Assembly: GCA_003170275.1 (NCBI GenBank)
Contig: PNAM01000009.1
Location: 124,001-188,000 of the forward strand
Length of the DNA: 64,000 bases
From: Myxococcales bacterium
GTDB lineage: Bacteria; Myxococcota_A; Polyangia; Palsa-1104
Direction: 5' to 3'
Shown here: piece after piece, positions 43,765-48,093 of the stretch
Layout of the letters: each line of letters begins with the position of its first letter
Numbering within the stretch: position 1 is the first letter of the stretch
Made by a program: the position numbers and the translations under genes
The notes under the pieces: generated by a model
Told to the model about the DNA's origin: nothing
Seen by the model: only the letters and a program-made list of their open reading frames with translations
The model's database searches: none

Positions 43765-45282
43765 ATGCCCCCGACCGGCGAGGCCCAGCCCCGCAAGCGG
43801 CTCCTCATCTTCGTGATCGCCTACTACGCCGACTCGACCCTCAAGGAGGTGCTCGAGCGCGTGCCGCGCAGCATCCTCACCGACTTCGATTGCGAGGTGC
43901 TGGTGATCGATGACGCGTCGCAGGACCGCACCTTCGAGGTCGGCCGCGCGTATCAGGCTGCGCACCCCGAGATGCCGATGACCGTGCTGCGCAACGAATA
44001 CAACCAGGGCTACGGCGGCAACCAGAAGATCGGCTACGCCTACGCGATCGCCAAGCGGTTCGATTTCGTCGCCATGCTGCACGCCGACGGACAGTACGCG
44101 CCCGAAGCGCTGCCCGAGCTGATGCGGCCGCTCGCCGAGGGGCGCGCCGACGCGGTGCTCGGCAGCCGCATGATGCAGCCGATGGACGCGCTCAAGGGCG
44201 GCATGCCGCTGTACAAGTTCGTCGGCAACCGCATCCTGTCGCGGCTGCAAAATCTGATGTTGGGCACGCGACTGTCGGAGTTCCACTCGGGCTATCGCAT
44301 CTACTCGGTGCGCGCGCTCGAGCGGCTGCCGGTCCGGCTCAACTCCGACGACTTCCACTTCGACACCGAGATCATCATCCAGATGCTCAACGCGCGCGCG
44401 CGGGTGGTCGAGCTGCCGATTCCGACCTACTACGGCAGCGAGATCAGTCGGGTCAACGGGATGAAGTACGCCAAGGACGTGCTGCTCGCCACCGTCAAGA
44501 ACGTGCTGCACCGCTCGAACGTCTTCTACCAGCGACGGTTCGACGTCGGCGGCGCGGGGAACACCCACTACGAGCTCAAGCTCGGCTACGCCTCGAGCCA
44601 CACGTTCGCGATCGACGCGGTGCCGGCGGGCGCGCGCGTGCTCGACGTGGGCGCGGGCCCGGGTGGCGTGGCCAGCGAGCTTCAGCGCAAGGGGTGCCAC
44701 ACCGCGGTGGTCGATCAGTTCGCGCCCGCAGAGGTCGCCGGCGAGGAGCCGGTGTACGTGCAGGACCTCAACGATCCGCCACGATTTCCCGTCGGAGATC
44801 GCGACTACCTGCTGCTCCTCGACGTGATCGAGCACCTGCGCTCGCCCGAGCAGTTCCTCGCGCAGCTGCGCGCGCGCTTCGACAACCGGCCCAAGACGAT
44901 GATTCTCACCACGCCCAACATCGCGTTCGTGGTGCAGCGACTCATGCTGCTGTTCGGGCAGTTCAACTATGGACGCCTGGGCATCCTCGACCGCACGCAC
45001 ACGCGGCTCTTCACCTTCCGCACCATCCGCCAGTTGCTGGTCGACGAGGGCTTTCGCATCAAGCGGGTGCGCGGCGTGCCGGCGCCGTTTCCCAAGGTGT
45101 TCGGCAACGGCTTGATTGGACGCGGCGCGCTGGCCGCCAACCTGGCGCTCATCCGCGTGTCGAAGACGCTGTTCTCGTATCAGATCTACATCGAGGCGGA
45201 GACGACGCCCGACGTGGACTTCCTGCTCGCGGACACCACCAGACAGAGCGCCCGGCGCGCCGAGCTCGCGACCGGTTCATGA
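43765..45282 (+). CDS. Family 2 glycosyltransferase fused to class I SAM methyltransferase
   Basis: VLVIDDASQDRTFEVGR, LHADGQYAPEALPEL; then RVLDVGAGPGGVASELQRKGC, LLLLDVIEHLRSPEQFL. Confidence 0.85.
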   Translation: MPPTGEAQPRKRLLIFVIAYYADSTLKEVLERVPRSILTDFDCEVLVIDDASQDRTFEVGRAYQAAHPEMPMTVLRNEYNQGYGGNQKIGYAYAIAKRFDFVAMLHADGQYAPEALPELMRPLAEGRADAVLGSRMMQPMDALKGGMPLYKFVGNRILSRLQNLMLGTRLSEFHSGYRIYSVRALERLPVRLNSDDFHFDTEIIIQMLNARARVVELPIPTYYGSEISRVNGMKYAKDVLLATVKNVLHRSNVFYQRRFDVGGAGNTHYELKLGYASSHTFAIDAVPAGARVLDVGAGPGGVASELQRKGCHTAVVDQFAPAEVAGEEPVYVQDLNDPPRFPVGDRDYLLLLDVIEHLRSPEQFLAQLRARFDNRPKTMILTTPNIAFVVQRLMLLFGQFNYGRLGILDRTHTRLFTFRTIRQLLVDEGFRIKRVRGVPAPFPKVFGNGLIGRGALAANLALIRVSKTLFSYQIYIEAETTPDVDFLLADTTRQSARRAELATGS

Positions 45283-46907
45283 GCAGGCCCGACGCGCGCC
45301 AAGCGCCGTCGCTAGCTCGCATCGTGCTCGGCGTCGCCCTGGTGGCGGCGCTGGTGCGGTTCGCGCACTTGATCTCGTTCTACGGCTCGCCGTTCTATCT
45401 ACTGCCTCCGCTCGACGGGGAAGTCTATCTGTTGACCGCGAAGCAGCCGATCGAGGGCGTGTACTTCCAATCGCCGGGCTACGTTCATTTTCTCAAGGCC
45501 GTGCTCGCGGTGTGGAATGGGATGCTCGGCTTTCGCGTCGTGCAGTGCCTGCTCGGCACGGGCACCGCGGCGCTCACCACGATCATCGCCGCGCGCGTGG
45601 TTCGCAACCGCTGGTGGGCGCTGGTCGCGGGGCTGGCGATCGCGTTGTGCGGGCCGCTGGTGGTGGTCGATCTGTGGCCGGCGCTCGAATCGCCCAACAC
45701 CTTCGCGCACGCCGCGACCTGCGCCGCGCTGCTCGCCGCCGGTTCCGCCGCGTCGCGACCGGGCGCTCAGGGACGGCTGCTCTACCTCACGCTGAGCGGG
45801 GTCGCGCTCGGCGCGGCGATCCTCCTGCGCCCGTCGGCGCTGCTGTTCCTGCCGTTGGTCGCGTTCTATCTATGGAAGGCCGACCCGCGAGCGAGGCGCG
45901 CGCGCCTGGCGACCGCCGCGCTGCCGATCGGCTTGGCACTGCTGGTCGTCGCGCCGGTCACGCTGCACAACCTGGAGAGCGGCGATCGCGTGCTGGTGAC
46001 CGCCTCGGGCGGGCTCAACCTGTACCTCGGCAACGGCGAAGGCGCGATGGGGCTGTACCGAATCCCCGATAGCTTGCCGGGCGCGGGCAACGCGCTGAGC
46101 ATGGCCGAGGTGTCGCAGTCGGTCGCCGATCGCGAGGTCGGCCGCCACCTCAAGCCGTCCGAGGTGTCCGACTATTTCTTCCGGCGCACGCTCGCCGACG
46201 TGCGCCGCGCGCCGGGCACGTGGCTGCGACTGATGGGCAAGAAGGTATTGCTGGCAATCAACTGGTTCGAGGCGCCGTGCAGTGAGGACTACTACCTCGA
46301 GCGCTCGCAGTCGCGACCGCTTCAGCTCGCGTTCGTCACCTTCGGGCTGTTGGCGCCGTTCTTCGCGCTCGGCGTGCTGGCCACCTTCTTCGCCGATCCG
46401 CGCCGCCGCGATCGACTGTTGGTGCTCGCGTTCGCCGCCGTGCCGATGGCCACCACCGTGTTGTATTTCTATCTCGGCCGCTACCGCCTGCCGGCGCTCC
46501 CCGCCGTCGCTGTTGTTGCCGCGCTGGGCGGCGAGTACCTGGTGGCAACCGCGCGCGCCCGCCAACGCCGCACCATGCTCGTGTGCTGCGCGATCCTGCT
46601 GGCGACGATCGGCGTCGTGCACCTTCCGCTGGTCGACTTCGATCGCTCGCAGGAATACACCAAGCTCGGCACCGCCGCCGCCCAGCTCGACCGCCCCGAC
46701 GAAGCCGCCTCCGCCCTCGAGCACGCGCTCCGCTACAACCCCGACAACCTGCGCGCCCTCCGCAACCTCGCCGTCGTCCGCGAAACCCAACATCGCCCCG
46801 CCGACGCCCGCGCGCTCTTCACCACCCTCCTTACCCGCGCCACCCAGCTCCACGACCAACGCCAACTCGCCGCCGCCGAAGCCGCTCTCCGCCGCCTCCC
46901 CCCGTAA
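45279..46907 (+). CDS. GT-C-type membrane glycosyltransferase with C-terminal TPR
   Basis: Multi-TM; PPLDGEVYLLTAKQPIEGVYFQSPGYVHFLKAVL; C-terminal LDRPDEAASALEHALRYNPDNLRALRNLAVV. Confidence 0.75.
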   Translation: MSRPDARQAPSLARIVLGVALVAALVRFAHLISFYGSPFYLLPPLDGEVYLLTAKQPIEGVYFQSPGYVHFLKAVLAVWNGMLGFRVVQCLLGTGTAALTTIIAARVVRNRWWALVAGLAIALCGPLVVVDLWPALESPNTFAHAATCAALLAAGSAASRPGAQGRLLYLTLSGVALGAAILLRPSALLFLPLVAFYLWKADPRARRARLATAALPIGLALLVVAPVTLHNLESGDRVLVTASGGLNLYLGNGEGAMGLYRIPDSLPGAGNALSMAEVSQSVADREVGRHLKPSEVSDYFFRRTLADVRRAPGTWLRLMGKKVLLAINWFEAPCSEDYYLERSQSRPLQLAFVTFGLLAPFFALGVLATFFADPRRRDRLLVLAFAAVPMATTVLYFYLGRYRLPALPAVAVVAALGGEYLVATARARQRRTMLVCCAILLATIGVVHLPLVDFDRSQEYTKLGTAAAQLDRPDEAASALEHALRYNPDNLRALRNLAVVRETQHRPADARALFTTLLTRATQLHDQRQLAAAEAALRRLPP

Positions 46908-46932: not shown

Positions 46933-48093
46933 ATGCGCACGACCGTCGCGTTCTTGCTGTTGACTTCGATCGCACGCGGCGCCGAGCCGCTCTCGTTCAT
47001 CGAGGACGACCATCCGCGCGCGTTGGCCGAAGCGCGCCGGCGGCACGTTCCGCTGTTCGTCGATAGTTGGGCGCCGTGGTGACACACCTGCCGCTTCCTG
47101 CGCGCGTTCGTGTTCACCGATCGCGCGCTCGGCAAGCAGGCCGGGCGGTTCGTCTGGCTCAGCATCGACACCGAGAAGGATCAGAATCGCGCGTTCGTGG
47201 AGAGGCACCCCATCGACGTGTGGCCTACATTAATGGTGATCGATCCGGCGACCGATCAGCCGGTGTTGCGCTGGGCCGGCTCGGCGACCGTGCCCGAGCT
47301 CGAGCAGCTCCTCGACGACGGTGAGCGCGCGGTGCACGGGGAGGATCCGCTCGGGCGCGCCGATCGGTTGGCTGCGGAAGGCAAGCCGGCCGACGCCGCG
47401 CGCGTCTATCGCGAAGCGCTGCCGTCGGTGCCGGCGGGCAAGCGCGCGCGCGTGGTCGAGTCGCTGATCTTCGCGCTCGATCGGACGCGCGACACCGAGG
47501 GTTGCGCGGCGCTGGCGCAGAAGTGGATCGACAAGCTGCGCGGCCCGGCGTTGGTGAACGTAGTGGGAACCGGTCTCGGCTGCGCGCTGAACGCACCGGC
47601 GGGCGCGCCCTGGAAGGTGGCGGCGGTGGCGGCGTTGCGGACGGGCGCAGAGGCGGCGGTCGACGCGCCCGGCGTGCTCGCCGACGATCGCTCGGGCCTG
47701 TACGAGGTGCTGGTCGAAGCCCACAAGCAGGCGGGCGATGCGGCCGGTGCGCGCGCGCTGGCCCGTCGCTGGTCCACGTTCCTCGAAGCCGAAGCCGCCC
47801 GCGCCGGCACGCCGGAGGCGCGAGCGTCGTTCGATCCGCATCGCGTCGTGGCCGCGATCGCCGGCGGCGAACCCGCGCGCGCGATCCCCGAGCTGCAAGC
47901 GAGCGAGCGTGAGCTGCCCGCCGACTACAACCCGGCCGCGCGACTCGCGCTCTTGTATCAGGCGCTCGGCCGCAACGACGATGCGCTCGCCGCCTGCGAT
48001 CGCGCGCTCGCCAAAGTCTACGGCCCGCGCAGAAAGCGACTCGCCGATCTCAAGACCAGGCTGCTAGAGCAGAAGCGCGCGGCCTCGCAGTAG
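46933..48093 (+). CDS. Thioredoxin-like protein with in-frame TGA (47080-47082) at the first Cys of WCxxC: candidate selenoprotein (386 aa if read through)
   Basis: MRTTVAFLLLTSIARGAEPLSFIEDDHPRALAEARRRHVPLFVDSWAPW-[TGA]-HTCRFLRAFVFTDRALGKQAGRFVWLSIDTEKDQNRAFVERHPIDVWPTLMVIDP; same frame on both sides of TGA. Confidence 0.75.
47100..47128 (+). promoter_or_regulatory. Candidate bacterial SECIS hairpin
   Basis: GCGCGCG/CGCGCGC 7-bp stem, T.T mismatch, TCG/CGA 3-bp stem, loop TGTTCAC starting 29 nt after the TGA. Confidence 0.4.

Follow-up and report, generated by a model that had tools for sequence, protein, structure and literature searches.

The 2026 inventory of prokaryotic selenoproteins (PMC13188914) comprises 119 families, in which the same domain with a different selenocysteine (Sec) site is counted as a separate subfamily. 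It includes UxxC thioredoxins (PF00085, in its Table 1), together with a thiol:disulfide interchange protein that has UxxC (PF13098) and a Trx7/PDZ protein that has CxxU. UxxC thioredoxin selenoproteins (PF00085) are also present in Anaeromyxobacter, and a repeated Cys-to-Sec pattern has been described for thiol oxidoreductases (PMC1794560). Among proteins with a thioredoxin domain followed by TPR repeats, the chaperedoxin CnoX (YbbN) works with DnaK and GroEL; the Caulobacter protein is a constitutive holdase and a thioredoxin-like reductase, and E. coli CnoX is devoid of the first Cys (PMC6282202). A UxxC Thioredoxin_7 protein with a TPR tail is absent from the 2026 inventory, which gives domain and motif and not every fusion. 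Searches of the open-access literature returned no paper that brings together selenocysteine or selenoproteins, SelB, thioredoxin and tetratricopeptide (an unnoticed earlier mention is possible), and no relevant paper on selenoproteins in Myxococcota.

The window (the whole stretch of 64,000 nucleotides that was analysed) contains a forward-strand frame from ATG 46933 to TAG 48091-48093 with a single internal stop, the TGA at 47080-47082, which occupies the first Cys position of a WAPW-C-HTC motif. The frame has 387 codons including the stop, and its read-through translation (...LFVDSWAPW-U-HTCRFLRAFVFTD...) corresponds to a protein with the active site W46-A-P-W49-U50-H-T-C53. The original prediction of this frame, with a lone TGA at the first Cys of a WCxxC motif, was borne out by the sequence. 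As it had also anticipated, standard gene calling splits the frame: the upstream part is open back to 46282, and the called downstream part (GTG 47110-48093) is without the active site, so that the gene would be an example of a selenoprotein gene truncated or split by standard gene calling. The TPR-like tail had been called unusual for a Sec thioredoxin, in agreement with the lack of any such family in the 2026 inventory. The coordinates of the features are collected in Table 1.

Table 1. Features of the locus, with the evidence for each.
Feature	Position	Strand	Evidence
Very probable selenoprotein gene, predicted exported thioredoxin-fold and TPR-like protein, 386 residues, Sec at 50	46933..48093	+	frame, Pfam, homology search, predicted structure
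Predicted signal peptide (MRTTVAFLLLTSIARGA)	46933..46983	+	by inspection; low model confidence here fits (pLDDT 67-73, residues 1-20)
Thioredoxin-fold domain, residues 22-134	46996..47334	+	PF13899 37.3 bits (cut-off 27), predicted structure
In-frame TGA, very probably read as selenocysteine, first Cys of WCxxC	47080..47082	+	frame, alignment to relatives
TGC, resolving Cys53 of UxxC	47089..47091	+	invariant in 34 aligned members
Candidate bacterial SECIS hairpin	47100..47128	+	folding versus model constraints of PMC13188914
All-helical TPR-like region, residues 141-385	47353..48087	+	predicted structure; TPR_19 just under cut-off

The uninterrupted coding on both sides of the TGA, on which the prediction had also relied, is real, and GC by codon position has a coding pattern before (0.65/0.53/0.86) and after the TGA (0.76/0.53/0.87). 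As an argument by itself it did not hold: at about 69% G+C, the window contains, over all frames, 19 TGA codons that lie in a UxxC or CxxU context and are flanked on both sides by 35 or more open codons. Since open frames are cheap in G+C-rich DNA, openness alone is weak evidence and homology is what counts; only the TGA at 47080 has homology on both sides, and this homology crosses it without a frameshift in all relatives. The neighbouring genes normally terminate with UGA, which argues against genome-wide recoding. The gene upstream (45282-46907) encodes a mannosyltransferase-like (PMT) membrane protein, also with a TPR region at its end; the gene stops 25 bases before ATG 46933, and the two genes might be co-transcribed. 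No conserved gene neighbourhood was found beyond Myxococcaceae/Archangiaceae, and the neighbourhood gave no clue to function.

Relatives were collected in two ways. A search of genome contigs was partly baited with WAPWCHTC, which biased it to Cys; the 80 relatives that it gave came from Myxococcota, Candidatus Eisenbacteria and one Acidobacteriota MAG, among others, and every one of them has TGC or TGT at the Sec codon. Unbiased six-frame searches covered 318 genomes from the class and 379 from the phylum, as well as the relevant order or class of two further genomes. Among the matches listed at E<=1e-15, exactly four genes had an in-frame stop, and no other in-frame stop was found. All four stops are TGA at the same codon: in the window gene (WAPWU), L126 of genome G004 (WAPWUYSC), L169 of G461 (WAKWUHTC) and L170 of G563 (WAPWUHTC). 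The last three are full-length, 39-50% identical to the window protein, and come from three other genomes; the 124 other distinct relatives compared all have TGC or TGT (Cys) at the position of codon 50. Short thioredoxin matches annotated with one TGA were left uncounted: where the alignment reaches it, this TGA is where an ordinary thioredoxin, its Cys intact, normally ends. In the 34-row alignment W46, A47, W49, residue 50 and C53 are invariant apart from the Cys/Sec exchange. The nearest relatives of the window protein are 59-60% identical and all carry Cys, and no relative above about 60% identity was found in the sets searched. In G004 a Cys orthologue (L016/L097, at 60% identity to the window protein) coexists with a diverged Sec paralogue. 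The gene was found in no other genome of the order of G563 (80 genomes; L190, contig C8, 6.2 kb) or of the class of G461 (73 genomes; L192, contig C237), which suggests horizontal transfer or misbinned contigs; the TGA gene of G563, on its 6.2-kb contig, could be misbinned.

The window's genome (G000) encodes the complete Sec machinery, with a tRNA-Sec of 74.4 bits (classified as tRNA-SeC, anticodon TCA, by ARAGORN), SelB (305.7 bits), SelA (539.8 bits) and a Cys-type SelD (371.7 bits), all of these scoring above their curated cut-offs and free of internal stops. These genes lie on four other contigs (C80, C22, C68 and C101) of an assembly of 118 contigs with 6% contamination. With the window, the tetranucleotide profiles of these contigs correlate at 0.94-0.98; parts of the window correlate with each other at 0.95-0.97, and for contigs from the other TGA genomes the value is 0.68-0.91. 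No formate dehydrogenase of the TIGR01553 type was found over cut-off in the window's genome, and when further UGA genes were sought beside the sel genes, only composition-like candidates emerged. A tRNA-Sec is also present in G004 and G461 (77 bits each). In G004 two equally scoring copies (77.1 bits) were seen, at C260:20937-21030 and C272:26952-27045; because the C260 match lies at a contig end, the pair may be one gene assembled twice. In G563, a genome 84% complete, no tRNA-Sec was found; an apparent match of 49 bits was assigned to tRNA-Ser by ARAGORN. Formate dehydrogenases of G563 have TGA at the Sec site (ARI-U-HSS and ARL-U-HSP) and two of G004 have it at the known Sec site, so that both genomes, to judge from these genes, probably decode Sec. 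Among genomes with Cys forms only, several had no tRNA-Sec match over cut-off (G009, G255, G243, G251, G256, G210, G254 and G299) and others do have a tRNA-Sec.

Since relatives have the same stop at the same place and the Sec machinery of the genome is complete, selenocysteine is very probable, and the gene at 46933-48093 is with high confidence a selenoprotein gene in which UGA codon 50 is decoded with SelB, the product being most likely an exported oxidoreductase with a predicted thioredoxin fold and TPR-like region.

Selection was compared between the window gene and L016, L098 and L017: dN was 0.17-0.40 and dS 0.8-1.6 before as well as after the TGA; dS is near saturation, so that only the direction (dN<dS) matters. 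Two trees were built, one of 128 members and a careful one of 42, and both force three Cys/Sec changes on well supported branches, with the window gene beside the Cys proteins L098 and L016 (97/97), L169 with L126 (98/96), and L170 with Cys proteins of Acidobacteriota and Eisenbacteria (99/98). The trees fit independent gains as well as one old Sec with several losses, and these two histories cannot be told apart from the sequences. The position of the window gene among Cys sisters resembles the repeated Cys-to-Sec pattern of thiol oxidoreductases (PMC1794560).

Thioredoxin_7 (PF13899) was matched by all 34 aligned members, and TPR_19 by 21 of the 34, with a score just below cut-off in the window protein (22.3 bits, cut-off 25). 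No NCBIfam model matched the window protein over cut-off. The structure predicted by AlphaFold2 from the 34-row alignment (pLDDT 95.6, pTM 0.90) has a thioredoxin fold at residues 22-134 followed by helices at 141-385. Superposition of the thioredoxin domain on the gamma domain of DsbD (1vrs, 2fwf) gave a TM-score of 0.73-0.76 (target), 2.3-2.8 A and 21-23% identity; the best Foldseek match by E-value (4.4e-6) is E. coli YbbN/CnoX (PDB 3qou), with a whole-chain TM-score of 0.23 and 13% identity. The confident model thus describes a DsbD-gamma/Thioredoxin_7-like domain with an all-helical TPR-like tail, behind a predicted signal peptide.

The bacterial SECIS (bSECIS) model (PMC13188914) specifies a loop of 3-9 nt, an upper stem of 4-16 bp, a G in the first two loop positions and a distance of 16-37 nt from the UGA. 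The window hairpin, GCGCGCG-U-UCG-[UGUUCAC]-CGA-U-CGCGCGC (-16.4 kcal/mol), has a 7-nt apical loop with G then U at loop positions 2-3, 28 nt after the UGA; it agrees with all these constraints, as does that of L126, and L169 and L170 are without the loop G. A loop G is also present in the best hairpin of 39% of the Cys relatives, though rarely in one as stable: of the 124 Cys relatives, 2.4% have a hairpin as stable as that of the window in the permitted place, and 0.8% one that also has G in the first two loop positions. The minimum free energy of the first 60 nt is -24.7 to -31.4 in the four TGA genes versus a mean of -16.7 in the Cys relatives (Mann-Whitney P 7e-4). When synonymous codons were redrawn, z was -1.6, -3.6, -2.1 and -3.7 in the four TGA genes versus a mean of -0.4 in Cys relatives (P 2e-4), and within its own gene the TGA stretch ranked 1st of 325 in L126, 2nd in L169, 36th in the window gene and 31st in L170. 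The z values of formate-dehydrogenase UGA sites, three of the four of which carry the canonical GGUCU loop, are about 0 or higher, so that the redraw folding test is not specific and is no SECIS detector. None of the four TGA thioredoxin genes has a GGUC loop. After the FdhA TGA of L200, L203 and L204 (G004 and G563), a hairpin with an E. coli-like apical loop GGUCU was observed about 18 nt after the UGA, unlike the thioredoxin-gene hairpins of the same genomes. A search with Rfam gave no SECIS; many bacterial SECIS do not resemble each other (2026 review, PMC13188914). The window hairpin is therefore a plausible candidate element, with moderate evidence.

A recent nonsense mutation (TGC to TGA), by which a young pseudogene would have lost its catalytic Cys codon, is very improbable. 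Such a pseudogene would still appear intact downstream, and it would fit with the Cys found in all the nearest relatives and with a window hairpin only moderately unusual within its own gene; yet only one of the 100 possible single-base nonsense changes in the gene yields TGA at codon 50, the same codon is TGA in three other genomes, no other stop occurs among the family members listed, and the genome has a complete Sec pathway. An assembly or sequencing error, TGC read as TGA, is even less probable: a single base would suffice and the assembly is fragmented and partly contaminated, but the error would need to strike precisely the codon at which three independent assemblies also have TGA. Equally slight is the chance that UGA is read as another residue by a suppressor tRNA, or that there are two genes, the second starting at the GTG 47110 given by standard callers. 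UGA terminates the neighbouring genes, and the short product would be devoid of the UxxC site, the signal peptide and the initial strands and helices of the thioredoxin fold, all of which are kept by the Cys relatives.

The selenocysteine reading therefore remains strongly preferred. The original prediction had held that a random nonsense mutation was unlikely to hit this codon and that selenocysteine replaces a redox Cys, and both points gained from the comparison: selA, selB, selD and tRNA-Sec are all in the genome, homologues aligned across the TGA have Cys at that codon, the stops seen in homologues are TGA at this very codon and not random, and constraint downstream is intact.

In the mechanism that we propose, the UGA at codon 50 would be decoded by SelB and Sec-tRNA(Sec), probably helped by the hairpin. 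The result would be an exported protein in which a thioredoxin fold with the active site W-A-P-W-Sec-H-T-Cys precedes a TPR-like helical solenoid. This protein would act as a periplasmic thiol:disulfide oxidoreductase: Sec50 may attack a substrate disulfide, the substrate being bound by the TPR-like tail or delivered by way of it; Cys53 would resolve the resulting selenenylsulfide, and recycling of the protein would fall to a DsbD/CcdA-type reductant in the membrane. On the predicted structure, an exported thiol:disulfide oxidoreductase with a UxxC site, whose helical tail binds a substrate or partner, is the most likely function.

We lean, with reserve, towards an unlisted selenoprotein family of exported Thioredoxin_7-TPR proteins, mostly from Myxococcota, in which the nucleophilic Cys was replaced by Sec (or Sec was lost) with at least three changes, and whose hairpins differ from the SECIS elements that the same genomes have in formate-dehydrogenase genes; for the window's genome this family may be among the few reasons to keep the Sec machinery. 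One family would thus be added to the prokaryotic selenoproteome. Natural Sec/Cys pairs (the Cys orthologue and Sec paralogue of G004; the window gene and its Cys sisters at 60%) would allow a direct measurement of what Sec offers over Cys to an exported oxidoreductase.

Compared with known systems, the protein shares the thioredoxin fold and Sec as the first residue of UxxC with the PF00085 selenoproteins, but these are small thioredoxins, whereas the window protein has Thioredoxin_7 as its best fit, a predicted signal peptide and a 245-residue TPR-like tail; it scores 24.2 bits with PF00085 (cut-off 23.5) and remains below the thioredoxin equivalog TIGR01068 (27.3 bits, cut-off 96.8). UxxC and a thiol:disulfide exchange domain are shared with the interchange selenoprotein PF13098, whose model is under cut-off here (24.1, cut-off 27) and whose inventory entry names no TPR-like tail. 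The Trx7/PDZ selenoprotein (NF041199) likewise has a Thioredoxin_7 domain in a multidomain protein, but with CxxU (Sec second) and a PDZ partner, whereas the window protein has UxxC, no PDZ and no NF041199 match. TsoB, a rhodanese/DsbD fusion-like selenoprotein (NF045694), has a DsbD-gamma-like thioredoxin domain that aligns weakly (28 bits, cut-off 805) within a different architecture. The domain order, thioredoxin then TPR, is that of CnoX/YbbN (PDB 3qou; PMC6282202), but the arrangement differs, as the whole-chain TM-score indicates, and the window protein appears exported and carries the probable Sec. Its thioredoxin domain is close to the C-terminal (gamma) domain of DsbD, from which it differs as a separate, apparently exported protein with a TPR-like tail and Sec replacing Cys. 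The family, though apparently new, is of a well-known type and calls for no new mechanism, Sec in place of the nucleophilic Cys of a thioredoxin fold being long known.
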